Assembly: GCF_014652355.1 (NCBI RefSeq)
Contig: NZ_BMYQ01000002.1
Location: 248,001 to 312,000, forward strand
Origin: Gemmobacter lanyuensis
GTDB lineage: Bacteria; Pseudomonadota; Alphaproteobacteria; Rhodobacterales; Rhodobacteraceae
Direction of reading: 5' to 3'
DNA: 64,000 nucleotides
Shown one piece after another: positions 34,122-51,175 of the stretch. Positions within the stretch are counted from its first letter, which is position 1. Each line of letters starts with the position of its first letter. Under the pieces are notes generated by a model. It did no database searches. It saw only the letters and a list, made by a program, of their open reading frames with translations, and was not told the DNA's origin. The position numbers and the translations under genes were made by a program.

Positions 34122-34787
34122 TCAACCGCACATTCGACGCATGGAGCTGATTTGCTTCAGCATTTCCTGCGGCGGGATCGTGCGGCAGATGTCCCGCATC
34201 ATGCGGACATCCGCCCCGAGGCCCGGCCAGAACCCCATTTTTTGTGATTTCAGCGGGCTGCGGACTTCGGGCCAGCGGACGACCGTGAGGGGCAGGCCTT
34301 CGGCAATCAGGCGGCGGTTCATCGCAACCTCAAGACCGAATCGCGCAGGCGGCTCAAGCCCTTGCAGGATCTGCCGGGGCAGCAGGCGTTCGCCCGAAAT
34401 GTAATCCAGCCCGATCCAGCGCCAGGGGGCGGGGGCATTGCCGCGCAGCGAGATCGTGGTTGCGGCCCGCCCCGCCAGAACCGGGCTGATCAGTTCGGTC
34501 AGGTGCCGGGGGGCGAGCCCCACCAGATCGGCATCCAGCAGCAGGATCAGATCCCCGCGCGCCGCGGCAAGACCACGGGCCACGGCACGCGTCTTGCCGG
34601 TGTTCCGTTCCTGCCGGATCAGGGTCACGCCGAACGCCTGCGCTGCGATTTCGGCCGTTGTGTCGCGGCTGGCGTCATCAACGACGATCAGTTCGTCGAT
34701 CAGCGGATGCCCCGAGACGGCCGCCAGCACCCCACCCAGCCGGGCGGCTTCATTATGGGCCGGGATGATGCAGCTCAGGCGCGTCAT
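34122..34787 (-). CDS. GT2-family glycosyltransferase (last gene of the lipid cassette)
   Basis: A 221-residue GT-A fold enzyme with LSCIIPAHNEAARLGGVLAA, the nucleotide-binding ELIVVDDASRDTT and the DXD-like LLLDADLVG. No transmembrane helix is obvious, so it probably works at the cytoplasmic membrane face. The start overlaps the stop of the DedA-like gene by four bases. Acceptor and sugar are unknown; the context suggests a glycolipid or lipid-linked sugar. Confidence 0.85.
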   Translation of the reverse strand: MTRLSCIIPAHNEAARLGGVLAAVSGHPLIDELIVVDDASRDTTAEIAAQAFGVTLIRQERNTGKTRAVARGLAAARGDLILLLDADLVGLAPRHLTELISPVLAGRAATTISLRGNAPAPWRWIGLDYISGERLLPRQILQGLEPPARFGLEVAMNRRLIAEGLPLTVVRWPEVRSPLKSQKMGFWPGLGADVRMMRDICRTIPPQEMLKQISSMRRMCG

Positions 34788-35335
34788 ACCCGTGCCTCGC
34801 GCCGCAGGTGCAGGGCCAGCGCAGCCAGACCCAGCAGCCCGAGGCCCGTCCAAACCAGCGCGGGCGGCGGCTCTGCGCCCAGACTGTAGCCCAGTGCCAT
34901 GAGCGCGGCGGTTTTGATGGCTCCGGCAGCCAGATTGGCCCCGAGGAAGGGACCCAGGCGCATTCCCGCCGCGCCCGCCGCCGCCAAAACCGGGGCGCCC
35001 GCGCCCTGGGTCAGTTTGGCGAGGATCAACCATCGCGTGCCGTTGCGCGCAAACCCTGCGCTGAGCGCGGCAATGCGGTGCCGATCAAGGCCCAGCCGCG
35101 CCTGCCAGCGGGCAGGGATGCGCCGCGCCCCCTGATGCCCCAAAGCGTAGAACATGAGATCTCCGATCAGGTCCCCGACCAGACAGACCACAAAAGTCAC
35201 GCCCGGGGGCAGCGCCGCCAGCCGCACCAGCCATCCGGCAATGATGGTGGCGACCGGGCCTTCGAGAATGGTCACGGGCAGCAGGATCAGCAGGCCCCAG
35301 TCCGAAATCAGCCGCAAAAGGGTGGCCGTCTCCAT
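34784..35335 (-). CDS. DedA-like (SNARE-associated) membrane protein
   Basis: A 183-residue polytopic protein with the DedA-type opening ILLPVTILEGPVATIIAGWL, VGDLIGDLMFYALGHQG and a later KLTQGAGAPVLAAAGAAGM. DedA proteins are implicated in lipid carrier or phospholipid translocation across the inner membrane. METATLLRLI was taken as the start. Lying between two glycosyltransferase genes, it is a candidate lipid translocase. Confidence 0.78.
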   Translation of the reverse strand: METATLLRLISDWGLLILLPVTILEGPVATIIAGWLVRLAALPPGVTFVVCLVGDLIGDLMFYALGHQGARRIPARWQARLGLDRHRIAALSAGFARNGTRWLILAKLTQGAGAPVLAAAGAAGMRLGPFLGANLAAGAIKTAALMALGYSLGAEPPPALVWTGLGLLGLAALALHLRREARV

Positions 35336-35339
35336 CCGC

Positions 35340-36458
35340 TTATTCCGCGGGCACCTGCATCGGGATGGCGCCCCCCTGGGTGGGTGCCATCGGCGTGCCG
35401 CGCCAGTCGAATCCGCGCCCCGCAAAAGTGAAGAGCCAGAGCACCGGCATCATCACGTCGCGGAGCATTGCGGCCAGCAAATCGATGGGCGCAAAGCGCC
35501 ACCCGGCCTGCCGCGCCAGAAGCCCCTCGGGCAGATACCACGCAAAGGCGAACAGCAGCGGCGCCAATGCCGACGGGGCAAAGCCAAGCGTCAGAACCAG
35601 CGGGATCAGGGGGCCGTTCAGCGGCTCCAGCAGGAAGAGCGCGGGAAAGCCAGCGCGGCGCACACGTGACCAACGCAGCTGCCGCCCCCAGACCTGCCCA
35701 AGGCGGCGCTGCCCGATCGGTTGGGCAAAGGGGTCCTGCGTCAGCCTGACCTGTAGCCCCATGCCCCGCACCACCTTGGTCGCGGCGACATCCTCGGCCA
35801 GATCCTGCCCCAGCAGGGCAAGCCCGCCGGCATCATCCAGATCGGCCTTGCGCCACATCAGGGTCTTGCCCTGCGCAAAGCCGAAACCCAGCTCGTCTGC
35901 GGCCAGCTGCAGGCGTGCCTGGTTGCCGTTCAGGAAGGCCGCTTCGACCGCCCCCCACAGGCCCTTGGCCCGAACCCCGACAGGCGGCGCGCTGACCAGC
36001 CCGGTATCTGCCTGCCACGCCGCCAGCACCTGATGCAGGTAATCGGGTGGCAGCAGGACGTTGCAATCGCTCAGGACCACGAATTCGCCCTCGGCGGCAT
36101 TCCAGCCTTGCCACAGATTGTTAAGCTTGGGGTTCCGCGTGATGGGGTGATCCCCGATCATCAGCCGGGCTTCGACCTGCGGATGGGCGGCGATCAGTCG
36201 GCGCAGCACCGGAATGGCCGGATCATCGGCGCGCGCAACGCAGAAGACCAGTTCCCAATCGGGATAGATCTGGTCAAAGCTGGTGGCAAAGGTTTCGGGA
36301 TCATGTGTATCCAGCCCGCAGACTGGGCGGATCAGGCTGATCCGCGGCAGGGGCCCTGCGGGCAGATCGGCTGCGGGGCGGTCAAACCGGCGGATGACCA
36401 GCAGGGCCGAAATCCAGTGCAGGCCCAGAAGGGTCAGAACGATCAGTGCGGCGATCAT
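35340..36458 (-). CDS. GT21-family lipid glycosyltransferase (Agt/ceramide glucosyltransferase-like)
   Basis: A 372-residue membrane glycosyltransferase. An N-terminal helix at about 3-22 is followed by a GT21 catalytic domain with D78/D79, the D2 motif SDCNV (131-), D3 in AEDVAATKVV (223) and the closing QLRW at 260-263. Two or three C-terminal hydrophobic segments follow from about 275. GT21 proteins of rhizobia and marine Rhodobacterales glycosylate diacylglycerol. It overlaps the upstream phosphoesterase gene by ATGA, the plcP-agt order. The sugar donor is unknown. Confidence 0.82.
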   Translation of the reverse strand: MIAALIVLTLLGLHWISALLVIRRFDRPAADLPAGPLPRISLIRPVCGLDTHDPETFATSFDQIYPDWELVFCVARADDPAIPVLRRLIAAHPQVEARLMIGDHPITRNPKLNNLWQGWNAAEGEFVVLSDCNVLLPPDYLHQVLAAWQADTGLVSAPPVGVRAKGLWGAVEAAFLNGNQARLQLAADELGFGFAQGKTLMWRKADLDDAGGLALLGQDLAEDVAATKVVRGMGLQVRLTQDPFAQPIGQRRLGQVWGRQLRWSRVRRAGFPALFLLEPLNGPLIPLVLTLGFAPSALAPLLFAFAWYLPEGLLARQAGWRFAPIDLLAAMLRDVMMPVLWLFTFAGRGFDWRGTPMAPTQGGAIPMQVPAE

Positions 36459-37252
36459 GGCAGCACCTCCTCAAGTTTTGCAGAGTTGCAGGGGATCGGA
36501 GCAGAGGCCGGCGCCGCCCACCCGATAAGCCGCAGGTGGCCGTCGGCATCTTCTGCCAGTGCGGTGAAGCTATCGACCCAGTCGCCGCAATTGGCGTAGG
36601 TCAGGCCGTGGCGGCGGTGCAGCATGGGCTTGTGAAAATGGCCGCAGATCACGCCGTCCTGATCCATGGCCCGGGCAAGCGCGGTCAGCTTGCGTTCATG
36701 CCGCGATCCCAGCGCCATCAGGGCATTCACCCCCGCCAACGCGGCCTCGATCAGGCTGCGACGGTCGCGGTCCATTTCCCGGCGCAGGCGCGACAGGCGC
36801 CGGTCGAGCACGCGCAGGCCGTTGTCCAGGCGACTGCCGATCCGCGTCGCAACATGGCTGCGCAGCCACCGGCCGTCGGCCACGTCGCCATGAATCACCA
36901 GATAGGACCGGCCATCCCCGCTGACGTGGATGGCCTGTGTCACGATGGCGATGCCCGGCGGCAGGTGATGGGGTTCGGCCAGCGCCTCGGCGTCGTGGTT
37001 GCCGATCAGATAGACAACCCGCGTTCCGCTGGCTGCCCGCGCTGCCAGCAGGCCCAGAACCGCATCCTGTTGCGGCCCCCAATGCGGGCGGCGCGGATGC
37101 CAGATATCCAGCACGTCACCAACGAGGTAGATCGTGTCGGCCGAACAATTCTGAAGAAAATCCAGCAGCCGGTCCGCCCGGCAGCCCAGCGCGCCCAGAT
37201 GCAGATCTGAAAGGAACAGCGCGCGGTGGTGGTGGCGGGGGGCGGGGTGCAT
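36455..37252 (-). CDS. COG2908 metallophosphoesterase, PlcP-type phospholipase C candidate
   Basis: A 265-residue calcineurin-like phosphoesterase with SDLHLG (D16, H18), VGDVLDIW (45-49), IGNHDAE (84-89), VIHGD (121-123) and CGHFHKP (204-207). This family contains both LpxH and PlcP. PlcP, which splits phosphatidylcholine/PE head groups from diacylglycerol under phosphate limitation, fits better because a GT21 gene follows directly and a four-repeat Pho-box-like array precedes it. It would often be labelled UDP-2,3-diacylglucosamine diphosphatase. Shine-Dalgarno GGAGG precedes the ATG. Confidence 0.75.
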   Translation of the reverse strand: MHPAPRHHHRALFLSDLHLGALGCRADRLLDFLQNCSADTIYLVGDVLDIWHPRRPHWGPQQDAVLGLLAARAASGTRVVYLIGNHDAEALAEPHHLPPGIAIVTQAIHVSGDGRSYLVIHGDVADGRWLRSHVATRIGSRLDNGLRVLDRRLSRLRREMDRDRRSLIEAALAGVNALMALGSRHERKLTALARAMDQDGVICGHFHKPMLHRRHGLTYANCGDWVDSFTALAEDADGHLRLIGWAAPASAPIPCNSAKLEEVLP

Positions 37253-37344: not shown

Positions 37345-38487
37345 TCAACCGACGCGACGACCCTGCACCCAGACCCCGCGCACCGCGCCTGCGTTTCCGA
37401 TCCGGGCCACGCGGATCACGTCGGCCCGCCCGCCGGGCACCAGATGCCCCCGGTCGGTCAGACCCGTCGCCTCGGCCGGGGCGGCAGTGACGGTCGCAAT
37501 GCCGCGCGCCATGTCACCCCACAGATCCCCCAGCATCAGCGCCGCCGAGAGCAGCGATGAGGGCACATAATCAGACGACAGGATATCGAGCAGCCCCGCC
37601 TCGGCCAGCACGGCGGCTGCCACATTGCCGGAATGCGATCCGCCGCGGATCAGGTTCGGCGCCCCCATCATCACGCGAATACCATGGGTGTGGCAGGCGC
37701 GGGCGGCCTCGACCGTCGTGGGGAATTCGGCGAAATGCACACCATGCGCGGCCGATTGCGCGACCTGTGCCTCGGTCGTGTCATCATGGCTGGCCAGCAC
37801 AGCGCCGTAGCGCCGCGCCTCGGCCACGGCGGTGGCTTCGTGCTGGGCGCCCAGCCGGTCGCGCAGGGCACGCTGGCTTGTGACATGGTCGTCGAACTGG
37901 GCGTCGTTCAGGCCATGCTTGCCGCAGACGTAATCGCGCAGCTTGCTGAGATCGCGGAACTGCCGCTCTCCGGGGGTGTGGTCCATCAGACTGACGATAC
38001 CGATCCGGTCATCGGGGCCGAATTTGGCCATTTCCTCGACCAGCGTTTCGGAACAGACCTCGGCCCGCAGATGCAGAAAATGGCTGATCCGCAGCGCCCC
38101 GGCGGCGCGCAGGTCCAGAATTTCGGTTGCAAGCGCCCGTGCATATTCGCCGTAATTCGCCTTGCCCTGCGTGACGACCGATCCCACCCGCAGCGCATCG
38201 AACACCGTCGTGATCCCGACCGAGGCGAGTTCGGCATCATGCGCCACGATGGCCGCCTGATGCGGCCAATCGACCCGCGGGCGGGGTTGGATATGGCGTT
38301 CCAGATTGTCGGTGTGCAGTTCGATCAGGCCGGGCATTACCAGATCACCGCCGCAGTCGATGGCGCCCTTGGGCAGCGCGCTGCCGGATGTGATATCGGT
38401 GATCCGGCCATCTTCCATCCGCAGCGTGCCGCGAAGGGTGGCATCGGGCAGGACCAGCGTGGCATTTGCAAGGAGGGTCTGGGTCAT
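37345..38487 (-). CDS. phnM: Alpha-D-ribose 1-methylphosphonate 5-triphosphate diphosphatase (PhnM)
   Basis: A 380-residue amidohydrolase-fold protein with metal ligands in LIELHTDNLERHIQPRPRV, the later VLASHDDTTEAQV and the C-terminal SSDYVPSSLL. PhnM removes pyrophosphate from the ribose methylphosphonate triphosphate made by PhnGHIL, giving the PhnJ substrate. It is transcribed alone on the minus strand behind its own Pho-box-like site, with the DUF1045 gene divergent. Confidence 0.93.
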   Translation of the reverse strand: MTQTLLANATLVLPDATLRGTLRMEDGRITDITSGSALPKGAIDCGGDLVMPGLIELHTDNLERHIQPRPRVDWPHQAAIVAHDAELASVGITTVFDALRVGSVVTQGKANYGEYARALATEILDLRAAGALRISHFLHLRAEVCSETLVEEMAKFGPDDRIGIVSLMDHTPGERQFRDLSKLRDYVCGKHGLNDAQFDDHVTSQRALRDRLGAQHEATAVAEARRYGAVLASHDDTTEAQVAQSAAHGVHFAEFPTTVEAARACHTHGIRVMMGAPNLIRGGSHSGNVAAAVLAEAGLLDILSSDYVPSSLLSAALMLGDLWGDMARGIATVTAAPAEATGLTDRGHLVPGGRADVIRVARIGNAGAVRGVWVQGRRVG

Positions 38488-38543: not shown

Positions 38544-38561
38544 GTCACAGCGGTGTGACAT
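38544..38561. promoter_or_regulatory. Nearly palindromic Pho-box-like site between phnM and DUF1045
   Basis: On the minus strand ATGTCAC (38561-38555), spacer ACCG, CTGTGAC (38550-38544): each heptamer matches CTGTCAY at six of seven. The core GTCACA-N4-TGTGAC is a palindrome, so the plus strand also has a 5+5 of 7 match toward the DUF1045 gene. Confidence 0.65.
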
Positions 38562-38582: not shown

Positions 38583-39263
38583 ATGGATCAGATCAAACGT
38601 TTTGCCGTGTATTACGCCCCGCCGGCCGGGGATTTTGCCGATGTCGCGGCCGCCTGGCTGGGCTGGGATGCCGCGCTGGGCTGTGCGGTGCAGCAGCCCG
38701 ACCTGGGCCTGCCCGCCGCGGAAATCACCACGGAGCCGCGCAAATACGGGTTCCATGGCACGATCAAGCCGCCCTTCCGACTGGCAGAAGGCCAGAGCGA
38801 GGCGGATCTGCGGGCGGGCCTTGCCGCATTGGCGCGGCAACTCGCGCCGGTGGTTCTGCCGGGGTTGCGGTTGAAGAACCTTGACGGTTTCCTTGCGCTG
38901 GTGCCGCAAGGTGACGCCGCCGCGCTGGGCGCGCTGGCTGAGGCCGTGGTCAAGGGGTTGGAGCCGTTTCGCGCCCCCCTCAATGCCGCCGAGATGGCCA
39001 AGCGCCGCCCCGAACGGCTGACGCCGCGCCAGCTGCATCTGTTGCAGGCCTATGGCTACCCCTTCGTGATGGAGGAGTTCCGCTTTCACCTGACGCTGAC
39101 GAACCGGCTGTCCGAGCCGCTGGCCAGCTTGGCGGCGGAACGTCTGATGGCGCATTTCGCCCCGGTGATCCCGCAGCCCTTTGTCATCGGCGACCTCTGC
39201 CTGTTTGGTGAGGCTGCGGATGGACGCTTTCATCTGCTGCACCGCTATACCCTTTCCGGCTGA
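38583..39263 (+). CDS. DUF1045 phosphonate-linked 2H-phosphoesterase-like protein
   Basis: A 226-residue protein with two HxT motifs, HGT at 58-60 (KYGFHGTIKPPF) and HLT at 169-171 (FRFHLTLTNRL), the hallmark of 2H phosphoesterases, which act on cyclic phosphodiesters. This family occurs in alphaproteobacterial C-P lyase operons. Because no PhnP is encoded here, it may open the phosphoribosyl 1,2-cyclic phosphate released by PhnJ; that is inference. Its 3' end overlaps the convergent phnN by 19 bases. Confidence 0.82.
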   Translation: MDQIKRFAVYYAPPAGDFADVAAAWLGWDAALGCAVQQPDLGLPAAEITTEPRKYGFHGTIKPPFRLAEGQSEADLRAGLAALARQLAPVVLPGLRLKNLDGFLALVPQGDAAALGALAEAVVKGLEPFRAPLNAAEMAKRRPERLTPRQLHLLQAYGYPFVMEEFRFHLTLTNRLSEPLASLAAERLMAHFAPVIPQPFVIGDLCLFGEAADGRFHLLHRYTLSG

Positions 39264-39778
39264 AGCGCTGCGAGGAACCGGACCAGACCCAGCGCCGGGG
39301 TGCCGTCATTCAGCACCTGCCGCACGGCCAATCCGTCCGGCAGGGCGAAATCGGCGCGCGCCAGCCGCCGGACCTGATCGTCGCCGCTTTCCCGCCCCCG
39401 CCCCGCAAGGCGCGCGGCCAGCACAGCGGGGGGGGCCGTCACCAGCACCACGGTCAGATCGGGAAACCGCCGTGCCGCATCGGGCAACACCGCGCGCGAA
39501 AGGTTGAGCAAGACCGTCCCCGTCCCCGCCAACTGCGCCACCGGGATGGCATAGCGCAACCCATGCGCCCGCCAGTGCAGGGCGAAGGCTCCGCTGGCGG
39601 CCAGGGCGTCGAACTCGGCCTCTGTCACGGAGTGGAAATCCTCGCCCCCCGCTTCGGCAGGGCGGGTGATCCAGCGGCGCACCCGGCGCAGATCGGGCCG
39701 GGCGGCGCAGGCCGCATCCATCAGCGTGTCCTTGCCCGCGCCCGACGGGCCGACGACGGCAACGATCCGCGCCGTCAT
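39245..39778 (-). CDS. phnN: Ribose 1,5-bisphosphate phosphokinase
   Basis: A 177-residue P-loop kinase of guanylate-kinase type with Walker A GPSGAGKDT at 10-18 and the lid region RGRESGDDQVRRLARAD. It converts ribose 1,5-bisphosphate, the end product of C-P lyase, to PRPP. It is last in the phnG-H-I-J-K-L-N operon and overlaps phnL by four bases. Confidence 0.92.
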   Translation of the reverse strand: MTARIVAVVGPSGAGKDTLMDAACAARPDLRRVRRWITRPAEAGGEDFHSVTEAEFDALAASGAFALHWRAHGLRYAIPVAQLAGTGTVLLNLSRAVLPDAARRFPDLTVVLVTAPPAVLAARLAGRGRESGDDQVRRLARADFALPDGLAVRQVLNDGTPALGLVRFLAALQPERV

Positions 39779-40458
39779 GCGGCCAAACCCGGGGTAAAGG
39801 CGGTGACATCGACCAGCCGGTCACAGACCCGCGCCCGCGCGCCTTCATCGTGGAAGATACCCAGAAGCGCCGCACCCCGCGCCTTGGCTTGCATGATCAG
39901 ATCCAGCACCACCTCGCGGTTCCGGGCATCAAGGCTGGCCGTTGGCTCATCCAGCAGCAGGACCGGATAGTCATGCACGAACCCCCGGGCGATGTTCACG
40001 CGCTGCTGTTCGCCCCCCGAAAAGGTGGTGGGCGACAGCGACCAGAGCCGTTCGGGGATGTTCAGCTGCGCCAGCAGACGGGCGGCGCGGGCCTCGGCCT
40101 CATCCCGCGGGACGGAAAGGCGCAGCAGTGGTTCCGCCACCACCTGCAAGGTCGGCACGCGGGGCACCACACGCAGGAACTGACTGACATGGCCCATGAC
40201 CTGCCGGCGCAGACGGATGATGTCACGCGGGGCGGCGCGGGCCACATCGAGGCCCGCCACCAGGATCTGCCCGCCTTCGGTGCGGTAATTGCCCTGCACC
40301 ATCCGCATCAGGGTGGATTTCCCCGCCCCCGACTGGCCTACAAGGCCAACACATTCTCCCGGCGCCACCGTCAGCGCCGCGCCCGCCATCACGGGAATGA
40401 CCGCCCCACCCTGATTGTGCAGGGTAAAGGATTTGGACAGGTTTGAAATCTGGATCAT
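39775..40458 (-). CDS. phnL: C-P lyase subunit PhnL (ABC-type ATPase)
   Basis: A 227-residue ABC-type protein with Walker A GQSGAGKST, signature FSGGEQQRVNIARG and Walker B PVLLLDEPTASLD. PhnL takes part in the attachment of phosphonate to ribose with PhnGHI rather than in transport. ATG 40458 was used; in-frame TTG and GTG codons lie directly upstream. It follows phnK by 48 bases. Confidence 0.92.
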   Translation of the reverse strand: MIQISNLSKSFTLHNQGGAVIPVMAGAALTVAPGECVGLVGQSGAGKSTLMRMVQGNYRTEGGQILVAGLDVARAAPRDIIRLRRQVMGHVSQFLRVVPRVPTLQVVAEPLLRLSVPRDEAEARAARLLAQLNIPERLWSLSPTTFSGGEQQRVNIARGFVHDYPVLLLDEPTASLDARNREVVLDLIMQAKARGAALLGIFHDEGARARVCDRLVDVTAFTPGLAA

Positions 40459-40506
40459 CACCAAGGCTTTCGCTGAAAGGTCTGTCTTGTGCCGGTTCCC
40501 TGCATG

Positions 40507-41304
40507 TCACACCTGCAGAACCGAACTGACGAGAAGCTGGGTATAGGCATGCTGCGGATCATCGAGCACCTGATCGGTCAGGCCCGCTTCGACGACATGG
40601 CCCGATTTCATCACCATCAGCCGGTCGGCCAAGAGCCGCACCACCGCCAGATCATGCGTCACGATGATGACCGACAGGCCCATTTCCCGCACCAGCCCGC
40701 GCAGCAGATCCAGAAGCCGGGCCTGCACGCTGACATCCAGCCCCCCGGTTGGCTCATCCATGAACACAAGCCGCGGGCCGGTCACGAGATTTCGGGCAAT
40801 CTGCAGGCGTTGCTGCATCCCGCCCGAAAAGGCCGAGGGGCGGTCATCGATGCGTTCGGCGGCAATCTCGACCCGGCCCAGCCAGTCGGTCGCGGTGTCG
40901 CGGATGCGGCCGTAATGACGTCCGCCCACGCCCATCAGCCGTTCGCCCACATTGCCCCCGGCGCTGACACCCATCCGCAGCCCGTCGCGCGGGTTCTGGT
41001 GGACATAGGCCCAGTCACCGCGCAGCAGGCGCCGCCGGTCGGCCTCGGACAGGGCCAGAACATCGGTGCCGTCAAACAGGATCTGCCCGGCGTCAGGGCG
41101 CTGGTGGCCCGCAAGGCAGGACAGCAGCGTCGATTTCCCCGACCCGCTTTCGCCGACGATCCCCAGGACCTCGCCGGGCCAGAGATCAAAGCTGACATCC
41201 GCGCAGCCGATCCGGGCGCCATAAAGCCGGGTCAGACCGGTGACTTGCAGCAGCGGGGTGTCCGTCGTGCTGGGCACCAGCAGGGCGTTTTGCGTACCAT
41301 CCAT
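40507..41304 (-). CDS. phnK: C-P lyase subunit PhnK (ABC-type ATPase)
   Basis: A 265-residue ABC-type protein with Walker A GESGSGKST, signature FSGGMQQRLQIARN and Walker B RLVFMDEPTGGLD. In the C-P lyase complex PhnK binds the PhnGHIJ core. Its ATG overlaps the phnJ stop by one base (TGATG). Confidence 0.93.
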   Translation of the reverse strand: MDGTQNALLVPSTTDTPLLQVTGLTRLYGARIGCADVSFDLWPGEVLGIVGESGSGKSTLLSCLAGHQRPDAGQILFDGTDVLALSEADRRRLLRGDWAYVHQNPRDGLRMGVSAGGNVGERLMGVGGRHYGRIRDTATDWLGRVEIAAERIDDRPSAFSGGMQQRLQIARNLVTGPRLVFMDEPTGGLDVSVQARLLDLLRGLVREMGLSVIIVTHDLAVVRLLADRLMVMKSGHVVEAGLTDQVLDDPQHAYTQLLVSSVLQV

Positions 41305-42179: not shown

Positions 42180-42218
42180 GGGAAACCTGCGCGGCAAGGG
42201 GGGCTATGCGATGCGGCG

Positions 42219-43319: not shown

Positions 43320-43900
43320 CAGGCATTCTCCACGATGGTGCTGCGGGGCAGGGCGGCAAGGGTGCTGCCGCTGGTGAACAGGCAATCAAAGCCCAGCGGG
43401 AAACGCGCCCGGTTGGCGATGAAGGCCGCCGTTTCGGGCAGGGACAGTTCCGCCCGGTCGCGGATGCCGGGACCGCGCAAATGCGCGCCGCTGGCGGTCA
43501 GGGCGGGCAGCTCCACGATCAGCGTGGCGGAACGGTCAGGGTAATCCGGCAGGCCCATGGAAAAGCGGCTGACGGGTTGCAGCGCGTCCCAGGTGCCAAG
43601 TGCGATGGCCGCACTTTCGGCCGCGACCAGCGGCGCCCCGCAATGGAAGGCGATCCAGGCGCGCACGGCTTCGGTATCCGCTGCGCCCGCCAGATGTACC
43701 GGCACCGTCGGGTCGGCCAGCGTCAGAAGTGCCACACCCGCCGCCACCGAAAGCGGCGCGGGGGGCTGGGCGCCGGTTACGGTTTGCATCGTGCCGGGGC
43801 GGGCCATTGCGGCCAGAAGCGCCCGGAAGGCATGGGCCGATTGCACTGCCGGCTCGACAAATCCGCCAGACAGGACGCTGGCATCTTGGGGGGCGGTCAT
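43319..43900 (-). CDS. phnH: C-P lyase core subunit PhnH
   Basis: A 193-residue protein with PhnH features SAHAFRALLAAMARPGTMQTV, LSVAAGVALLTLADPTVPV and the C-terminal FPLGFDCLFTSG. It is a core component of the PhnGHIJ complex. It overlaps phnG by four bases. Confidence 0.93.
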   Translation of the reverse strand: MTAPQDASVLSGGFVEPAVQSAHAFRALLAAMARPGTMQTVTGAQPPAPLSVAAGVALLTLADPTVPVHLAGAADTEAVRAWIAFHCGAPLVAAESAAIALGTWDALQPVSRFSMGLPDYPDRSATLIVELPALTASGAHLRGPGIRDRAELSLPETAAFIANRARFPLGFDCLFTSGSTLAALPRSTIVENA

Positions 43901-44331
43901 GCGTCTTCTCCGCGGACGAGGGTGAAGAAATCGACCTTGGTGGCCTGCGCGCGTCCGGCGCGGGCAGCGCGGGCATCGGTTTCAATCCGGGCAAGGGGCG
44001 CCAGGATGCGGGCCTGAAGGTCTGCGGCGGCGCCGGTCTGCATCAGCGCATCCACAAGGGCGGCGCGGTGGGCATGGTCACGGTCGCGGCCCTGCACATG
44101 GGCATGGCCCACGGTGCCGCAGGTCAGCTGCAGGCTGCAGCGCGTGACGGTGATTTCCCCTAGATGGAAGGGCGCGCCGCTGCCGCCCGTGCGACCCTGC
44201 ACCATGACCGCTCCCACCTCGGGCGGGCGGAGCCATTGGCTTTGCGGCAGGTCCGGCAGCAGGGCGGCCAGATCGGCGGGCCGGGCGCGTGCGAGCAGGC
44301 CCATCCAGTTCTGTCTGTCCATGATCGACAT
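43897..44331 (-). CDS. phnG: C-P lyase core subunit PhnG
   Basis: A 144-residue protein with RQNWMGLLARARPADL near the start and FHLGEITVTRCSLQLTCGTVGHAHVQGRD in the centre, as in PhnG. First gene of the C-P lyase operon. Two starts are possible, ATG 44331 and ATG 44322, neither with a clear ribosome site; the longer is given. Upstream lie a PhnF-like palindrome, a promoter and Pho-box-like repeats. Confidence 0.92.
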   Translation of the reverse strand: MSIMDRQNWMGLLARARPADLAALLPDLPQSQWLRPPEVGAVMVQGRTGGSGAPFHLGEITVTRCSLQLTCGTVGHAHVQGRDRDHAHRAALVDALMQTGAAADLQARILAPLARIETDARAARAGRAQATKVDFFTLVRGEDA

Positions 44332-44398: not shown

Positions 44399-44408
44399 GA
44401 AAAGTCCT

Positions 44409-44437
44409 GTGAATTTTCCATGACGTTCGGATGAACG
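44409..44437 (-). promoter_or_regulatory. Three-repeat Pho-box-like site upstream of phnG
   Basis: On the minus strand CGTTCAT (44437-44431), ACGTCAT (44426-44420) and AATTCAC (44415-44409) are spaced by four bases each. Matches to CTGTCAY are 5, 5 and 4 of 7, with the TCAY core kept in all three. Confidence 0.55.
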
Positions 44438-44447
44438 GGGGGCGGCC

Positions 44448-45191
44448 TTGGCCACGCGCAGCGCAATCTGGAAATCCATTGCCGACACGCTGGCGGCCGA
44501 AATCGCTGAGGGCCATTACGCCCCCGGCGACCGCCTGCCGACCGAGGCGCAGCTTTCAGCCCGCTTTGGCGTGAACCGCCATACCGTGCGCCATGCGTTG
44601 CAGACGTTGGCCGATCTGGGCACCGTCCACGCAAGGCGCGGATCGGGCGTCTATGTCACGGCGCGGCCCACGGACTATCCGCTGTCGCGGCGGACGCGGT
44701 TCCATGAAAACGTCCTCGCCTCGGGGCGGACGCCTTCGCGCCGGCTGAACCGGCTGGAAACCCGCGCCTGCGACGGGGAGGAGGCCGCAGCCATGCGCCT
44801 GAACCCCGGCGATCCGGTGCATGTGGTGGAGGGGATTTCGCTGGTCGATGATCAGCCCATCGCGGTTTTCCGGTCGCTGTTTCCCGCCAGCCGCCTGCCC
44901 GGTTTGCTGGAACATCTGAACGCCGTGCCTTCGGTCACGGCGGCGCTCGCGGCCGTTGGCGTGGGGGATTACACCCGCGCGGAAACCCGGCTGACGGCGG
45001 TGGCGGCGACGCCGACGCTGGCGCTGCATCTGCGGCTGGCCGAAGGGGCACCGCTGCTGCGCAGCCGCGCGCTGAACCATGATCCGGCAGGGCAGGTGGT
45101 GGAATTCGGCACGACCTGGTGGGCTGGGGATCGGGTGACGCTGACCGTGTCACCAGATCCGCATCTGCCTGTCACAGACCCGTCGCCTTGA
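44448..45191 (+). CDS. phnF: GntR/HutC-family regulator PhnF
   Basis: A 247-residue protein with an N-terminal winged helix (LPTEAQLSARFGVNRHTVRHALQTL region) and a C-terminal UTRA ligand domain (PVHVVEGISLVDDQPIAVFRS). PhnF proteins regulate C-P lyase operons. The start is TTG 44448 behind GGGGGGCGG; no in-frame ATG or GTG fits. It is divergent from phnG with the palindrome between them, and is followed by the second phnM-like gene. Confidence 0.9.
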   Translation: MATRSAIWKSIADTLAAEIAEGHYAPGDRLPTEAQLSARFGVNRHTVRHALQTLADLGTVHARRGSGVYVTARPTDYPLSRRTRFHENVLASGRTPSRRLNRLETRACDGEEAAAMRLNPGDPVHVVEGISLVDDQPIAVFRSLFPASRLPGLLEHLNAVPSVTAALAAVGVGDYTRAETRLTAVAATPTLALHLRLAEGAPLLRSRALNHDPAGQVVEFGTTWWAGDRVTLTVSPDPHLPVTDPSP

Positions 45192-45234
45192 GCGCCTATT
45201 GTCACGGTCAAACCGCTGCAAGGCCGAGATCGTG

Positions 45235-46416
45235 ATGCCCTCCTTTCTGCCCCCGCTGCGCCTGACCGGCGCCGAAATCCTGCGCGACGGCGAATTGCAG
45301 CGCCGGTCCATCGGCATTGCCGAAGGGCGCATTACCCGCGGCCCGCTGCCCGAGGTGAATCTGTCGGGCTATTTGATCCTGCCGGGTATCATCGACCTGC
45401 ATGGCGACAGTTTCGAACGGCAGGTTGCGCCGCGCCCCTCGGCCCCGTTTCCGCTGCGGGCGGGGCTGGCCGCCACCGACCGCGAGGCTGCGGCCCACGG
45501 TCTGACCACCGCCTATCTGGCCCAGGGCTGGAGCTGGGAGGGCGGCCATCGCAGCCCTGACCATGCCGAGGCGCTGGCCGAGGCGCTGGCCGCCTATCGG
45601 CCGGACTCGCTCATTGACCTGCGTCTGCAAATCCGGGCCGAAACGCGGCTGGTGTCGGAAGGCGACCGCCTGATTGAGGCCGTGCGCCGCCACCGCATTG
45701 ATTATGTGGTCTTCAACGACCATGCCGAAGAGGGTCTGACAATGGCGCGCGGCGATCCGGCGGCCTTCGCCTATTGGGCGCGCAAGCTGGGCGTGAAACC
45801 CGAACAGCTGCGCGAGCGGCTGGAGGCCGTCCGCACCCAGGCCCGCGCCGTGCCCCGGCACCTGTGTTCTCTGGCCGAGGCCTTTGACCGCATGGGCGTG
45901 ATCTATGGCAGCCACGATGACCCTGATGGCGAAACCCGCGAATTCTATTCGATGATCGGGGCGCGGATCGCGGAATTCCCCACCTCGCGCCGTGCCGCCG
46001 TGGCCGCCCATGCAATGATGAGCCCGGTCCTGTTGGGGGCGCCCAATGTGGTGCGGGGCGGCAGTCAGGCGGGCAATGTCTCGGCGCGGGAGCTGATTGC
46101 CGAAGGGGTTTGCGATGCGCTGGTGTCGGATTACCACCTGCCTGCGCTGGCCATGGCCGCGTGGGCGCTGGTGGACCGCGGGCTTCTGCCGCTGCCCAAG
46201 GCCTGGGCGATGATTTCCTCAACCCCGGCCGAGATCCTGCGCATGACCGACCGGGGACGGCTTGATCCCGGGATGCGCGCCGATCTGGTGGTGGTGAATG
46301 CCGAAACCCGCGTGGTCGAGGCGACCATCGCGGGCGGGCGTCTGGCCTATCTGGCCGGAGAGGCCGCGCGCCGCTTTCTGGCGCAGCCGGTGCCGCTGCG
46401 CCTTGCGGCGGAATGA
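45235..46416 (+). CDS. Second PhnM-like amidohydrolase
   Basis: A 393-residue amidohydrolase of the PhnM family with LPGIIDLHGDSFERQVAPRP, VIYGSHDDPDGETREF, GAPNVVRGGSQAGNVSA and LVSDYHLP, which align with the same motifs in PhnM at 37345-38487. It probably hydrolyses a related ribosyl phosphonate triphosphate or adjusts substrate range. It is co-oriented with phnF. Its TGA abuts the TCA (reverse stop) of the convergent acetyltransferase with no base between. Confidence 0.85.
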   Translation: MPSFLPPLRLTGAEILRDGELQRRSIGIAEGRITRGPLPEVNLSGYLILPGIIDLHGDSFERQVAPRPSAPFPLRAGLAATDREAAAHGLTTAYLAQGWSWEGGHRSPDHAEALAEALAAYRPDSLIDLRLQIRAETRLVSEGDRLIEAVRRHRIDYVVFNDHAEEGLTMARGDPAAFAYWARKLGVKPEQLRERLEAVRTQARAVPRHLCSLAEAFDRMGVIYGSHDDPDGETREFYSMIGARIAEFPTSRRAAVAAHAMMSPVLLGAPNVVRGGSQAGNVSARELIAEGVCDALVSDYHLPALAMAAWALVDRGLLPLPKAWAMISSTPAEILRMTDRGRLDPGMRADLVVVNAETRVVEATIAGGRLAYLAGEAARRFLAQPVPLRLAAE

Positions 46417-47034
46417 TCAGCCGCCGTATTTTTCCAGAAACGCCTCGGCAGGAAGGGCGCGGAAATCGGCCAGCGCGTCGCGCAGCCGGTCGTGCGGCCA
46501 ATCCCACCAGGCCAGTGCCATCAGCCGGTCGGCAATCCCCGCGCTGAACCGCGCGCGCAGCGGCACGGCGGGCACCCCCGCCACGATCATGTAGGGCGCG
46601 ACATCCTTCGTCACCACCGCCCCGGCGGCGACAATGGCCCCCGCACCCACCGTCACCTCGGGCTTGACGATCACGCCATGGCCCAGCCAGGTATCCGGCC
46701 CGATCACCGTGCGGCGGCCTTCGCGATGGGCGAAAAAGTCGGGATCATCGGCCACATCCTCCCAATAATAGGACGACCGATACAGAAAATGGTGGAGCGA
46801 AGCGGTATGCATCGGGTGATCCGTCGGCCCGATCCGCGTCATGGCTGCCACATTGGCGAATTTGCCCAGCGTGGTATTGGCGATGTCAGCCAGCCGGTCG
46901 CAATAGGCGTAATCCTCGAACCAGGTGTTGAGGATGCGGCTTCCGGCGCCGACCTCGCACCAGGCGCCGAAACTGCTGTTCACGATCTGGCAATCGGGGC
47001 CGATCACCGGGGTGGTGGCGGAAAGTTTGGGCAT
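46417..47034 (-). CDS. Phosphonate-operon hexapeptide acetyltransferase
   Basis: A 205-residue left-handed beta-helix protein with hexapeptide repeats ([36 protein letters not shown]) and the acetyltransferase motif [11 protein letters not shown]. This matches the DapH/GlmU-like transferase linked to phosphonate operons, which may acetylate aminoalkylphosphonates as PhnO does. ATG 47034 was used; an in-frame TTG lies at 47049. Last gene of the phnCDE operon. Confidence 0.82.
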
Positions 47035-47060
47035 ATCAAAAACCTGCAACGGAAGGGGCG

Positions 47061-48377
47061 TCAGCCGCGGATCAACCTGCGCCGCAGCCAGCCGGATATC
47101 GTGTCCATCAGCATGACCATCAGCACGATCAGGACCATGTAATAGGCAACCTCCTCCCAGTCCTTCTGGGTGATGATCGCCTGGGTCAGCATCAGGCCGA
47201 TACCGCCGCCCACGATGGCCCCGATCACCGTGGCGCTGCGGGTATTGCTTTCGAGGTAATAGAGCACCTGGCTGAGCAGCACCGGCGTCACCTGCGGGAT
47301 CACGCCAAAGCGCGCGCGCAGCAGCGCCCCGGCCCCGGTGGAGCGCACGCCCTCGACCTGCTTTTCGTCGATGTTTTCCAGCGCCTCGGAAAAAAGTTTG
47401 CCGAAACTGCCGGTATCGGTGATCAGGATGGCCAGCGCCCCCGTCATCGGGCCAGGGCCAAAGGCACGCGACAAGATGATGGTCCAGATCAGCCCATCCA
47501 CCCCGCGGATGAAATCGAAGACCCGGCGCAGGGCAAAGCGCAGGGCGCGCAGGGGCATCATGTTCGATGCGGCCAGAAAGCCCAGCGGCAGGGCCACAAG
47601 GGCGGCGCCAAAGCTGCCCAGGAAGGCCATCAGCATGGTTTCAAAGATTGCCCAGGCCACATCGGCATGACGCCACATCTTGTTGGTCCAGACATCGTGC
47701 AGCATGGCCAGGATGTTCGGGCGGGCCGAATCGACGCGATCGCCCCAAAGCGCCAGCGCCGCAAGTTCACCCCAGCTGCGGTCATGGAAGGGGCTGTCGA
47801 GCGTGAAGAAGAACAGCTCCCACCCCGGCTGGTAGCGGAAGGTTTCGACCTTGGACCGTGTATAGTTGAAGCGCCCCGCATCGGTCTTGACGCTGATCCG
47901 TGTGTCGGAAACGCTGAGCCAGTCGGGCAAAGGTTCCGGCGCGGTCAGCGCCAGCCGGTCGCCTTCGGGGCGGATGTCGATGGTGCCATAGCCCGGCACC
48001 ACATAGCGCGCGCCTGCATCATCATAAGTCACAATATGCCCGCGCCCAAGGTCGATGGTCGTGACCGCGCCCTGCACCGTGACCCAATCGGGAAGCTTTC
48101 CTGCGGGGTAGGTGCCCTTTGCCTCGCCCTCGACCGCGACGGTCAGGGCGCCGCTGCGGTTGTTGCGGGTGACATGGGTCTTGTAGTTCCAGAAATCCGA
48201 CAGAAGGATCGCGGCATTGTCGAGCCGCGCGCGCGCCGCCAGACCCGCCACATCAAAGGACAGCGCGGCATAGACCAGATAGGCCAGCACCAGCGCGGGC
48301 AGGGCCAGCGCGACAAGGCGGCGGCGGATAAAGCGGGACGAGATATCATCGATCAGCGCGGCATCAAGCGAGGCCAT
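47061..48377 (-). CDS. phnE: Phosphonate ABC transporter permease, long form (PhnE2)
   Basis: A 438-residue permease. One transmembrane helix at about 22-42 is followed by a region of about 190 residues predicted to be periplasmic, then the usual permease helices and the coupling loop ([29 protein letters not shown]). It imports phosphonates with PhnC, PhnD and PhnE1. It follows phnE1 by three bases. Confidence 0.9.
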
Positions 48378-48380: not shown

Positions 48381-49256
48381 TCAACCTTTCACCATGCGGG
48401 TGCGGAAACGATCGGACAGGCGGTCGATCAGGGCGATGGTCAGGAACAGCATGAGGAAGATCGCCACCACCTGATCGTAGCGGCCCTGTCCCCATTGCAT
48501 TGCAAGCTTCAGCTCGTGACCGATGCCGCCCTCGCCCACGAAGCCCAGAATGGCCGAGGCGCGGACGTTGATTTCAAAGCGCAGCAGGGCATAGCTGATC
48601 CAGTTCGGCGCGACCTGCGGCAGAACGCCCAGCCACATCCGCTGCGTCCAGCCCGCGCCGACCGATGTCAGCCCTTCGACCGGTTTCAGATCGGCGTTTT
48701 CGGCCACTTCGGAAAACAGCTTTCCCAACGCGCCCGCGGTATGCAGCGCGATGGCGATGACGGCCGGGATCGGCCCGCCGCCCAAGATGAAGATCAGCAC
48801 CAGCGCCACGACGATTTCCGGCACCGCCCGCAGCGCATCCATCAGGCGGCGAAAGATGCCCGTCGCCCGCGGCCAGCGCGCCAGCCCCCGGGTGGACAGC
48901 AGCGCCAGCGCCATGGCGGCCAGCGCCCCCAGCAGCGTGGCCACCGCCGCGATGTTCAGCGTCTCGATCAGCGAGGGCAGATAGCTGATCGCAAGGGCCG
49001 GAACTTCGGCCCGCTTTTCCCAGGCTTCGGACAGGACCTCTGCCGGGAAGGCGCCCAGCATGGGCAGGCCGTCCAGAAAGCCGCCCGCGTTCCGGTCTTC
49101 CGCCATGCGAAAGCCCGAAGCCATGAGAACGACGAACAGCAGCAGCAAAAGCCCGCCATAGAGACGGCGGCGCTGTACCTGTTGCAGATAGCTGTCGCGG
49201 AGCGTGCCGGGTTCGGGCTTGGGGCCGCGGTCCGGGCCAAAGGCGATGTCAACCAT
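48381..49256 (-). CDS. phnE: Phosphonate ABC transporter permease (PhnE1)
   Basis: A 291-residue permease with about five helices and the coupling loop EVAENADLKPVEGLTSVGAGWTQ followed by GVLPQVAPNW. It pairs with the long permease. It lies 87 bases after phnD, and an intercistronic hairpin lies between them. Confidence 0.93.
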   Translation of the reverse strand: MVDIAFGPDRGPKPEPGTLRDSYLQQVQRRRLYGGLLLLLFVVLMASGFRMAEDRNAGGFLDGLPMLGAFPAEVLSEAWEKRAEVPALAISYLPSLIETLNIAAVATLLGALAAMALALLSTRGLARWPRATGIFRRLMDALRAVPEIVVALVLIFILGGGPIPAVIAIALHTAGALGKLFSEVAENADLKPVEGLTSVGAGWTQRMWLGVLPQVAPNWISYALLRFEINVRASAILGFVGEGGIGHELKLAMQWGQGRYDQVVAIFLMLFLTIALIDRLSDRFRTRMVKG

Positions 49257-49343: not shown

Positions 49344-50240
49344 TTACTGTGCGTCCTGCAGCTTGCGTGCTTCCAGGATGCCTGCGTAAGCGTCGAGCGT
49401 GACCGGCACAAAATCCTTCGCCTCGCCCGCAGCCACACCATAGGCGCAGTCCTTGTCGGTTTCATGAAGGTCGGCGGTCAGTTTGGTGACCTTGTCCTTC
49501 ACGTCCTGCGGCAGGGCTTTGCGCACGACCATCGGGCCTTCCGGGATCAGCTTGGATTTCCAGATCTCGACCAGATCATTCATCTCGACCAGACCGGCAT
49601 CGGCGGCCTTGCGGAAGGCGCCCGAATTGTAGCCGTCTTCCCAGTTGCCCAGACCGTCAGCCCAGCTGACGCCCGCGGCGAAATCGCCGTTCGCCACGCC
49701 CACGATGGTTTGTTCGTGCCCGCCCGAGAATTTCACTTCGCCAAAGTAATCCTCAAGCTTGCCGTAGGTGGCCATCAGTTCGGCGGCCGGCACCAGGTAG
49801 CCCGAGGTCGAGTTCGGTTCCCCGAAGGCAAAGACCTTGCCCTTAGCATCTTCGATCTTGGTGATGCCGCTGTCCTTGCGGGCAAAGGCAATCGAATAGT
49901 AACCGGTCGACCCATCGGCGTTCTGCTTGGTCAGGGCCAGGTCCACGGCATTCGGGTCGGTCAGGTGGATCTTCGCAAAGGCCGAGGCGCCCAGCCAGGC
50001 CATGTCCAGCGTCCCGCCCAGCAGGCCCTGAATCACGCCATCATAATCGGCCGGGGTGAAAACCTTGACCGGCACGCCCAGCTCGGCCTCGATCGCGGCG
50101 CGGTAGCATTCGTTCGAGGTCATGCGGTCCTGCGCGTTTTCGCCGCCGAGGATGCCGATGTTGAATTCCTTGATCTCTTGCGCGGCAGCGGCGCCCGACA
50201 GGGTGGTCGTCGCAGCAAGGGCGAGAAGGAGGTATTTCAT
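49344..50240 (-). CDS. phnD: Phosphonate ABC transporter substrate-binding protein
   Basis: A 298-residue periplasmic protein with a signal peptide (MKYLLLALAATTTLSGAAAA, cut near residue 20). It has the PhnD features GILGGENAQDRM, LLGGTLDMAWLGASAFAKI and FGEPNSTSGYLVPA (phosphonate contacts). It delivers phosphonates to the PhnE permeases. It is second in the operon, 45 bases after phnC. Confidence 0.95.
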   Translation of the reverse strand: MKYLLLALAATTTLSGAAAAQEIKEFNIGILGGENAQDRMTSNECYRAAIEAELGVPVKVFTPADYDGVIQGLLGGTLDMAWLGASAFAKIHLTDPNAVDLALTKQNADGSTGYYSIAFARKDSGITKIEDAKGKVFAFGEPNSTSGYLVPAAELMATYGKLEDYFGEVKFSGGHEQTIVGVANGDFAAGVSWADGLGNWEDGYNSGAFRKAADAGLVEMNDLVEIWKSKLIPEGPMVVRKALPQDVKDKVTKLTADLHETDKDCAYGVAAGEAKDFVPVTLDAYAGILEARKLQDAQ

Positions 50241-50285
50241 GGTCGTCTCCGTAACGGCCCCCGTCCGTCGGGGGCGGGGTGAAAC

Positions 50286-51104
50286 TCAGGCCAGCATCTG
50301 CTCGGCCCAGGCGGCATCGGCCTCGGTATCCGTGGGGATCGCGGTCGAGGTCGCGGCTTCGTTGAAGGTGTCGTCGGCGCCATAGATGTCGCGGGCGACG
50401 CCGGTCGAAAGCTGTTCGGGGCTGCCGTCAAAGACGATGCGCCCGTCGCGCATGCCGATAACGCGGTCGCAATAGCGGCGCGCGGTATCGAGCGTATGGA
50501 GGTTCGCGATCACCATCCGCCCGTCTTCGACATTGATGCGGCGCAGGGTATCCATCACGACCTGCGCATTCATCGGGTCGAGGCTGGCGATGGGTTCATC
50601 GGCCAGAATGATCCGGGGGTCCTGCATCAGGGCGCGGGCAATGGCCACGCGCTGCTGCTGACCACCTGACAGGGCCTCGGCCCGTTTGGGGGCCTGTTCG
50701 GCGATGCCCAGCCGGTCGAGAATATCCAGCGCGCGCAGGATATCGGCGCGGGGCCAGAGGTTGAACATCGCGGTCAGGGTCGAGCGGCGGTTAAGCAGAC
50801 CGTGCAGCACGTTCGAGGCCACATCCATGCGCGGCACAAGATTGAACTGCTGGAAGATCATCGCGCATTGGCTCTGCCATTCCCGGCGGGCGGCGCCGCG
50901 CAGCGACAGGATCTCGCGCCCGTCCACGTGGATTTCGCCGGCGCTGGCATCGGTCAGGCGGTTCATCATGCGCAGGAAGGTGGATTTCCCTGCGCCCGAC
51001 CGCCCTATGATGCCGACAAAGGCAGGGCGATCGACCGAAAAGCTGATATTGTCCACCGCGGCCTTCTGGCCAAAGAGACGCGAGACGTTGCGAACCTGCA
51101 GCAT
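50286..51104 (-). CDS. phnC: Phosphonate ABC transporter ATP-binding protein
   Basis: A 272-residue ABC ATPase with Walker [10 protein letters not shown]-loop [12 protein letters not shown], signature [14 protein letters not shown], Walker [13 protein letters not shown] and H-loop NLHTLDTA. It energises phosphonate import. It is first in phnC-D-E1-E2-acetyltransferase. A weak Pho-box-like region is upstream. Confidence 0.95.
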
Positions 51105-51146
51105 GGTATCCCCCTGAACCTGTTGCCAGCGGGATAGGCAGGCTGT

Positions 51147-51175
51147 GTGACAGCCGCGTCGCGCCGCCGTGAAAG
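51147..51175 (-). promoter_or_regulatory. Weak Pho-box-like region upstream of phnC
   Basis: On the minus strand CTTTCAC (51175-51169) and CTGTCAC (51153-51147) match CTGTCAY at six and seven of seven, two 11-base periods apart. The heptamer between them (GCGCGAC) matches only three of seven. Confidence 0.4.

Follow-up and report, generated by a model that had tools for sequence, protein, structure and literature searches.

Phosphonate-use genes and a PlcP-GT21 lipid operon as recurrent, Pho-box-bearing neighbours in Gemmobacter lanyuensis and relatives

Do genes for using phosphonates and genes for remodelling membrane lipids lie side by side because they form one system, or because they answer to the same signal? 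The question is raised by a 64,000-nucleotide stretch of the Gemmobacter lanyuensis genome (G000:C2:248001-312000; 4.03 Mb in 51 contigs), which we call the window. Within 17 kb of it lie a carbon-phosphorus (C-P) lyase cluster and phosphonate importer (phn genes) and a four-gene operon, hereafter the cassette, for the phosphoesterase PlcP, a GT21 lipid glycosyltransferase, a DedA/VTT-domain membrane protein and a GT2-type glycosyltransferase. An earlier note on this sequence had proposed one co-evolved phosphate-starvation module. We found that the two parts bear the same type of Pho box and are linked in relatives more often than expected by chance from genome length, and the locus is best read as two neighbours that recur and have Pho boxes in common, and not as an obligate module. 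Taken as a whole, the explanation that we favour, with two co-regulated starvation systems as recurrent neighbours and a proposed glycolipid as the product of the cassette, is likely in our judgement.

The gene content given in the earlier note (phnGHIJKLN, phnF, two phnM-like genes, DUF1045, phnCDE1E2, an acetyltransferase and the four-gene operon) was borne out by profile matches, with every named gene inside the 17 kb and free of inner stops. Read from right to left, the order is phnC-phnD-phnE1-phnE2-acetyltransferase (minus strand, 51104 to 46417), phnF and PhnM2 (plus, 44448 to 46416), phnGHIJKLN (minus, 44331 to 39245), DUF1045 (plus, 38583-39263), phnM1 (minus, 38487-37345) and, at the left end, plcP, GT21, VTT/DedA and GT2 (minus, 37252 to 34122), followed by a tRNA-Arg and a histidine kinase gene. 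The individual features are as follows.

34122..34787, minus: GT2, GT-A glycosyltransferase, GpgS (GT81)-like; PF00535, E 1.3e-24
34784..35335, minus: DedA/VTT-domain membrane protein; PF09335, 45.5 bits, gathering cut-off 33.9
35340..36458, minus: GT21 lipid glycosyltransferase; PF13506, E 5.2e-52
36455..37252, minus: PlcP, calcineurin-like metallophosphoesterase of phospholipase C type; PF12850/PF00149
37307..37335, minus: Pho box of plcP, three half-sites at an 11-base period, 55-83 bases 5' of the start codon; ranks 1 and 5 (17.1 and 13.6)
37345..38487, minus: phnM (PhnM1), triphosphate diphosphatase; NF011984, 541.6 bits, cut-off 260
38544..38561, minus: Pho box 5' of phnM1, beside the divergent DUF1045 start; rank 3, 16.2
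38583..39263, plus: DUF1045 (TIGR03223), 2H phosphoesterase; E 1.2e-73, two HxTx motifs
39245..39778, minus: phnN; TIGR02322, above cut-off
39775..40464, minus: phnL; TIGR02324, above cut-off
40507..41304, minus: phnK; TIGR02323, above cut-off
41304..42197, minus: phnJ, C-P lyase subunit, probably starting at an inner ATG; PF06007, E 3.9e-147
42219..43319, minus: phnI, start assigned in the sequence to the ATG at 43319; PF05861, E 1.8e-161 for the extended frame 42219-43385
43319..43900, minus: phnH; TIGR03292, above cut-off
43897..44331, minus: phnG; TIGR03293, above cut-off
44409..44426, minus: possible Pho box of phnG, weak in score (8.6), conserved in position
44448..45191, plus: phnF, GntR-type regulator; TIGR02325, above cut-off
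45169..45186, plus: Pho-box-like site inside the end of phnF, 5' of phnM2; rank 4, 14.7, with 0.45 such sites expected by chance
45199..46416, plus: PhnM2, second PhnM-like amidohydrolase; NF011987, 369.6 bits, cut-off 253
46417..47049, minus: hexapeptide-repeat acetyltransferase of phn operons; TIGR03308, 287.4 bits, cut-off 201.65
47061..48377, minus: phnE2; TIGR01097, above cut-off
48381..49256, minus: phnE1; TIGR01097, above cut-off
49344..50240, minus: phnD; TIGR03431, above cut-off
50286..51104, minus: phnC; TIGR02315, above cut-off
51169..51186, minus: Pho box of phnC, 65-82 bases 5' of the start codon; rank 2, 16.5

The first evidence for a shared control lies in the promoters. We scored the window with an 18-base matrix that was trained on the 250 bases 5' of plcP at 35 loci of other genomes and seeded with a Pho-box half-site. 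When left out of the training, 27 of these 35 plcP promoters exceeded the 95% level of their own shuffles. Among 127,966 scored positions, the three top sites in the window were those of plcP, phnC and phnM1/DUF1045, and the fourth was that of phnM2. The phnC site, which the earlier note had called weaker, ranks second. In random sequence with the dinucleotides of the window, 0.14 sites of 16.2 or more are expected per 64 kb; over 100 draws of such sequence the best site had a mean score of 14.3 and a maximum of 19.96, and so the places of the top sites tell more than their scores.

By score the phnG site does not stand out from chance, as 64 kb of random sequence should hold 25.9 sites of this kind, and higher-scoring phnG sites were found at seven linked loci of relatives (L098, L111, L121, L128, L130, L141 and L145). 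At the G. caeni locus L111, whose plcP promoter belonged to the training set and whose phn promoters did not, the promoters of phnM1, phnG, phnC and plcP hold the four highest-scoring sites, and in several relatives the plcP-trained matrix ranks phn promoters among the top sites. The window genome encodes a PhoB above the profile cut-off (343 versus 296 bits). Together, these observations support the conclusion that the lipid and phn parts bear the same type of Pho box.

How often do the two parts meet? The family sample held 345 genomes from 344 genera, of which 63 had a PlcP match, 60 once the genomes with the three weakest matches (G006, G128 and G333; E 5.8e-10 to 5.5e-4) had been moved to the PlcP-negative group, and 179 had PhnJ. 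A second PlcP match in G269 (E 9e-4) was discarded, and that of G152 (L064) was included as a locus, not as a genome. We extracted the surroundings of 60 PlcP matches from 59 other genomes, nine of the 60 stretches being shorter than 19.9 kb at contig ends. The 80 named loci are the best 80 by PlcP similarity, from a set in which at least 560 of 596 stretches were confirmed; seven of the 80 form a Thioclava-type clade. Removal of 21 duplicates from 146 PlcP loci left 125 distinct ones, the window excluded. Among the 60 stretches of the family sample, the order plcP-GT21-DedA-GT2 is fixed wherever PlcP is close to that of the window.

When linkage was taken to mean two or more phn genes inside 10 kb, 10 of the 90 distinct other plcP-GT21 loci were linked, against about 0.6 expected from genome length (estimated rate 0.88% per genome). 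The adjacency is therefore not unique to this strain, and by length-based estimates the linkage exceeds chance. Some linkages may have been missed, as 8 kb of contig was present on both sides in 73 of the 90 GT21 loci and in 26 of the 35 others. Two of those 35 GT21-less loci (L064 of G152 and L048 of G112) also lie near phn genes, and so linkage is not confined to the GT21 type. In an unsupervised count of neighbours at the best 80 loci, the families that rank after the cassette itself, its shadow frames and ABC-superfamily matches include the close PhnC family (10 loci), the acetyltransferase (9) and phnD, phnE1, phnF and phnG (8 each). At the level of whole genomes, PhnJ is present in 48 of the 60 PlcP-positive genomes and in 131 of the 285 others (Fisher P 1.6e-6, kinship not corrected).

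These counts bear on the simplest alternative, that an ordinary rearrangement in the window strain made chance neighbours of the two parts and that their adjacency means nothing. It draws support from the family sample, where among 30 other plcP-GT21 genomes phn genes lie within 10 kb of the cassette only in G211, with the full phn cluster beside it, and in G084, with transporter genes only; by the length estimate, P for finding two or more linkages in 59 loci is 0.066. When all PlcP types are taken, however, four or more linkages among the 59 have a P of 0.0009, and the excess among the 90 distinct loci likewise speaks against chance. A further locus of the family sample, L020 of G242, has acetyltransferase and PhnM-like genes beyond GT2 with 35-47% identity; these were treated as paralogues and not counted as linked.

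The second line of evidence is the arrangement of the parts. At least five arrangements of cassette and phn genes occur among the linked loci:

phnM1 followed by plcP on one strand, gap of 92 to 112 bases: window, L098, L111 and L115
GT2 followed by phnC, gap of 31 and 194 bases: L130 and L145
phnE2-plcP-GT21-DedA-GT2-acetyltransferase on one strand, the cassette inside the phn block, gap 5' of plcP of 723 and 748 bases: L128 and L141
divergent phnC and plcP, separated by 1.1 kb: L121
convergent GT2 and phnM1, separated by 2 kb: L159
GT2 and phnC, transporter genes only, 4.3 kb apart: L092

In L128 and L141, where by predicted starts GT2 overlaps the acetyltransferase gene, the long gap 5' of plcP makes a promoter of its own likely. 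A tree of 77 cassettes (LG+G4, a quick run with SH-aLRT support only; 8 of 84 loci omitted for a missing gene) scatters the 11 linked rows, so that 10 changes of state are needed, at least eight of them forced by well supported branches; with shuffled labels the mean was 10.4 changes and 227 of 500 shuffles were as low as 10. This is a tree of cassettes and not of species, in which gain and loss are indistinguishable. Both the variety of arrangements, including a same-strand cassette inside the phn block, and the forced changes argue against chance neighbours, which we consider distinctly improbable.

In the tree, the two rows from Pleomorphomonas branch within rhodobacterial cassettes, reflecting either horizontal transfer or mislabelled records. 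They belong to the cassettes seen outside Rhodobacterales, namely L161 and L168 (Pleomorphomonas) and L163 (a record named Brenneria). L091, a metagenome-assembled genome titled Exiguobacterium profundum, a name from the Bacillota, holds a rhodobacterial cassette and is probably misnamed. Cereibacter ovatus has two plcP loci (L090 and L097), of which the second has GT21 and lacks both DedA and GT2.

Within the genus, 11 genomes were sampled, among them records named Gemmobacter aquaticus, caeni, lutimaris and serpentinus; PlcP was found in eight, PhnJ in eight and both in seven. The plcP and phn genes are adjacent in three of these seven (the window, G. caeni G347 and G. lutimaris G349) and not in G345, G346 and G318, while G351 is fragmentary and has no phnM1 in the 5 kb 5' of plcP. 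G. aquaticus (L079 and L089), the sister of the window in the tree, has its phn genes on another contig, which favours chance neighbours; it also carries DUF1045 beside plcP, and no DUF1045 was found in its phn cluster. The simplest reading is that this DUF1045 is likely a relic of a former linkage that was broken.

Another possibility is a mobile phosphorus island, in which the 17 kb would have been transferred horizontally as a unit, using the tRNA-Arg gene (34034-34110) as its attachment site. The tRNA-Arg does lie 11 bases beyond GT2, and the cassette does occur outside the family, in Pleomorphomonas and the Brenneria-named record. However, cassette and phn genes are separate in most loci and are joined at different ends, the G+C content of the island equals that of its surroundings, and no integrase was seen among the annotated flanking genes of the partly annotated window. 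Transfer of the whole as a unit is thus very improbable. As a general attachment site tRNA-Arg was rejected, since it was found at none of the 22 loci scanned of the 80 named.

Several results limit what can be claimed for co-regulated, recurrent neighbours. The parts are not linked at 80 of the 90 distinct loci or in 28 of 31 plcP-GT21 genomes of the even family sample (the window's included, some stretches being cut by contig ends), which together with the three of seven in the genus does not bear out one co-evolved module. The chance rate was derived from genome length and not from an anchor-gene control, and in the neighbour count an aminotransferase-like family reached 9 of the 80 loci and one more non-phn family 8 of 80. 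As for the boxes, 8 of the 35 plcP promoters stayed at or below the 95% level of their shuffled versions, and the highest score was at most 10.9 at L159 and at most 7.7 in the 3.7 kb surrounding phoB. In the window strain, low-phosphate induction, the enzyme activities, the product and the role of the DedA protein are predictions from sequence. The reading in the earlier note is therefore partly supported, with correct parts and too strong a summary, and co-regulated neighbours that meet repeatedly is the description that fits.

What would each part do? The core C-P lyase set phnGHIJKLM is complete and intact by NCBIfam and Pfam profiles. PhnG, PhnH, PhnK, PhnL, PhnN, PhnF, PhnC, PhnD, both PhnE proteins and PhnM1 score above their NCBIfam cut-offs, PhnI and PhnJ were assigned through Pfam, and PhnM2 shares 33% identity with PhnM1. 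The cysteines of PhnJ at 246, 249, 271 and 277 form CX2CX21CX5C, which we take to be the spacing of E. coli PhnJ. PhnP occurs in some C-P lyase clusters and is not taken here as required; none was found above cut-off in the genome (best 51.7 versus 272 bits). This fits DUF1045 standing in for PhnP. In the window DUF1045 falls marginally below its own cut-off (TIGR03223, 247.5 versus 248.95 bits), and in the available part of PMC8235418 it is a proposed cyclic ribose phosphodiesterase that replaces PhnP. DUF1045 is probably in the place of PhnP here as well.

In the lipid operon, residues D16, H18, D46, N85, H86, D87, H121, H205 and H207 of PlcP are invariant in a 28-row alignment, and we take them to be the metal-binding motif set of the calcineurin-like superfamily. 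PlcP is below the LpxH cut-offs (44.3 versus 134 bits and 36.8 versus 190 bits) and so is not LpxH, and it has the expected context, a Pho box and an adjoining lipid-synthesis gene. The earlier note had called the operon a PlcP/Agt cassette, of which PlcP was confirmed and Agt is the wrong name: the Pfam domains of the window glycosyltransferases are GT21 (PF13506) and GT2-type with no GT4, whereas Agt is a GT4 enzyme and it is the GT21 enzymes named Pgt that glycosylate diacylglycerol (DAG), according to the parts available of PMC8231724 and, for Pgt, PMC3972451. The best NCBIfam match of GT21 is HpnI (191.4 bits), which would suit a hopanoid or sphingolipid glycosyltransferase of HpnI or ceramide type and an operon that remodels those lipids, not DAG. 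The match is below the HpnI cut-off of 310, though, in 113 PlcP loci GT21 and plcP share a strand and are no more than 5 kb apart, and PlcP is known to yield DAG (PMC8231724, in part); a hopanoid or sphingolipid role is accordingly highly unlikely. Single frames of 565 and 554 amino acids in L012 and L009 were considered as a GT21-DedA fusion and rejected because a stop codon separates the genes, and a search of stop-free frames across loci found no such fusion.

The structure model of GT2 is confident (pLDDT 94.5), and its 16 best matches in the PDB are all GpgS, with template modelling (TM) scores of up to 0.77; M. tuberculosis GpgS entries score mostly 0.72-0.77, and DPMS, ArnC and GtrB 0.58-0.67. 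GT2 is also conserved, with a mean column identity of 62% in a 26-row alignment. GpgS retains the anomeric configuration of the sugar that it transfers. On the strength of the model, we propose that GT2 is an alpha-glucosyltransferase acting on a glycolipid; it may work like GpgS but is not a GpgS. The DedA/VTT model has a pLDDT of 87.6. A fold search of the PDB gave no match with E < 0.001 and a sequence search none with E up to 1, and against the UptA flippase profile the protein reached 27.3 bits, well under the cut-off of 250; we propose that it is a lipid flippase. Among PlcP loci with a nearby GT21, 100 of 113 also hold DedA and GT2 (duplicates included), and the cassette is conserved across many genera.

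The assignment to a glycolipid pathway faces counterevidence of its own. The TM ranges overlap (M. hassiacum GpgS 0.63-0.72, ArnC up to 0.67), GT2 is far below the GpgS cut-off (67 versus 262 bits, on the longer frame), and its sequence profile matches DPM synthase and GpgS alike (E about 5e-13 and 8e-13). DedA is missing from 9 of 109 loci that have GT21 and GT2, including two R. capsulatus records, with GT21 and GT2 there 3 to 64 bases apart or overlapping by one, so that DedA is dispensable for the core reaction; three loci carry GT21 with neither DedA nor GT2. GT2 and DedA could instead serve a polyprenyl-phosphate-linked sugar that modifies the envelope at low phosphate, as a DPM- or GtrB-like synthase and an undecaprenyl-phosphate flippase, leaving GT21 alone to make glycolipid. 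The profile matches of GT2 to DPM synthase and GtrB would suit this, as would the undecaprenyl-phosphate flippases reported among DedA proteins of other bacteria (PMC12893004, in part). On the other hand, the fold of GT2 is nearer to M. tuberculosis GpgS than to DPMS, ArnC and GtrB, even if other GpgS structures overlap with these; GT2 is kept in the nine DedA-less loci; and no membrane helix was seen in it by eye. We regard a polyprenyl-linked sugar as unlikely.

A known lipid gives the glycolipid proposal its content. Under phosphate starvation R. sphaeroides makes alpha-Glc(1-4)-beta-Gal-DAG, as summarised in the consulted part of a review (PMC3972451). The sampled genome G046, identified as Cereibacter (Rhodobacter) sphaeroides, probably strain 2.4.1, from a 99.9% plasmid match and its seven contigs (a 37-kb contig gave no match), carries all four cassette genes together with BtaA, for which no match was found in the window genome; a site of 19.1 lies 5' of its plcP, a promoter in the training set. 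Synthesis of this glycolipid requires one inverting and one retaining transferase, and because the cassette supplies what is likely one of each, it is a candidate operon. We propose that GT21 and GT2 make alpha-Glc(1-4)-beta-Gal-DAG. The fuller claim joins several parts: that the cassette is the operon for this low-phosphate lipid of R. sphaeroides, with GT2 as a GpgS-like retaining alpha-glucosyltransferase and DedA as a flippase of glycolipid or DAG, and that selection for shared PhoB control repeatedly draws it to the C-P lyase genes, sometimes into their block. In this combined form we advance it tentatively, as possible and somewhat short of probable.

The mechanism that we envisage places two phosphate-starvation systems side by side, each with its own Pho boxes. 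An ordinary C-P lyase and phosphonate importer would free phosphate from phosphonates, and the lipid-swap operon would spare phosphate by exchanging membrane phospholipids for sugar lipids. PlcP would remove the phosphate head group from membrane phospholipids to leave DAG, GT21 would attach a beta-sugar, probably galactose, and the GpgS-like GT2 would then attach alpha-glucose; the DedA/VTT protein, where present, would carry lipid from one leaflet to the other. The expected product is alpha-Glc(1-4)-beta-Gal-DAG or a closely related lipid, and the linkage would reflect repeated clustering of co-regulated genes and not one mechanism that needs both parts. If this is true, the genes for a glycolipid described in 1995 would be within reach of two deletions in a tractable model, R. 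sphaeroides, a DedA-family protein would gain a concrete lipid context, and the linked loci would form a natural series of gene orders for how phosphorus sparing and scavenging come under one control. The candidate genes for the R. sphaeroides glycolipid are the best lead of the analysis.

Some observations concern the surroundings of these genes. The phnG/phnF intergenic region (44331-44448) contains an inverted repeat, TTGTC...GACAA, a candidate PhnF operator seen by eye. The histidine kinase gene to the left (32380-33852) was considered as phoR and rejected (76.3 bits versus a cut-off of 334). Further left, on the plus strand, a second VTT-domain protein (30239-30967; PF09335, E 2.5e-18) overlaps a MerA-like FAD oxidoreductase gene (30964-32376), and we saw no connection between it and the cassette. 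The right flank (51222-54847) encodes a luciferase-like monooxygenase (TIGR03858), a carboxynorspermidine decarboxylase (TIGR01047) and a carboxynorspermidine synthase-like protein below cut-off.

Parts of this picture are already known from the available portions of the literature, namely plcP beside lipid transferases (PMC4796936) and the co-induction of PlcP and C-P lyase in Phaeobacter (PMC10132767). In the texts searched, mainly open-access and with supplements aside, we found no mention of plcP-phn linkage, of plcP operons that include DedA, or of genes assigned to the R. sphaeroides glycolipid. The C-P lyase cluster with DUF1045 beside phnM that is described in PMC8235418 has phnGHIJKLMN, phnCDE1E2, phnF and DUF1045 in common with the window, which differs from the portion of that account seen in having a second PhnM-like gene beside phnF and the attached lipid operon. 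In Phaeobacter MED193, the consulted part of PMC10132767 reports that PlcP, BtaA and C-P lyase proteins, DUF1045 included, are induced together by phosphorus limitation, and a phoB mutant assigned most of the induced proteins to the Pho regulon. There plcP is followed by btaA and, unlike in the window, lies apart from phn, some 50 genes away by locus tag (plcP 17359, phnI-phnM 17614-17649); co-induction thus needs no adjacency.

Among the plcP neighbourhood types 1-6 of Sebastian et al. (PMC4796936), plcP stands with a lipid glycosyltransferase and Pho boxes, as in the window; in types 3 and 5 it precedes glycosyltransferases, one of which was shown to make di- and triglycosyl-DAG (Devers 2011, as cited there). 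The main text of that paper, in the version available, contains neither DedA nor any phn gene (no occurrence of either term). Agt, or GTcp, is likewise a DAG glycosyltransferase adjoining plcP, but belongs to GT4 with a GT-B fold, as opposed to GT21 in the window (PMC8231724, in part). Through its GT21 domain the window enzyme resembles Pgt of Agrobacterium and Mesorhizobium, which has a predicted Pho box and makes glycosyl-DAG at low phosphate in the excerpts available of PMC3972451 and PMC8231724. Pgt itself is described there as processive, adding successive beta-linked sugars (1-6 in M. loti), whereas in the window the next gene product to act would be a separate, GpgS-like enzyme, consistent with an alpha linkage of the second sugar.

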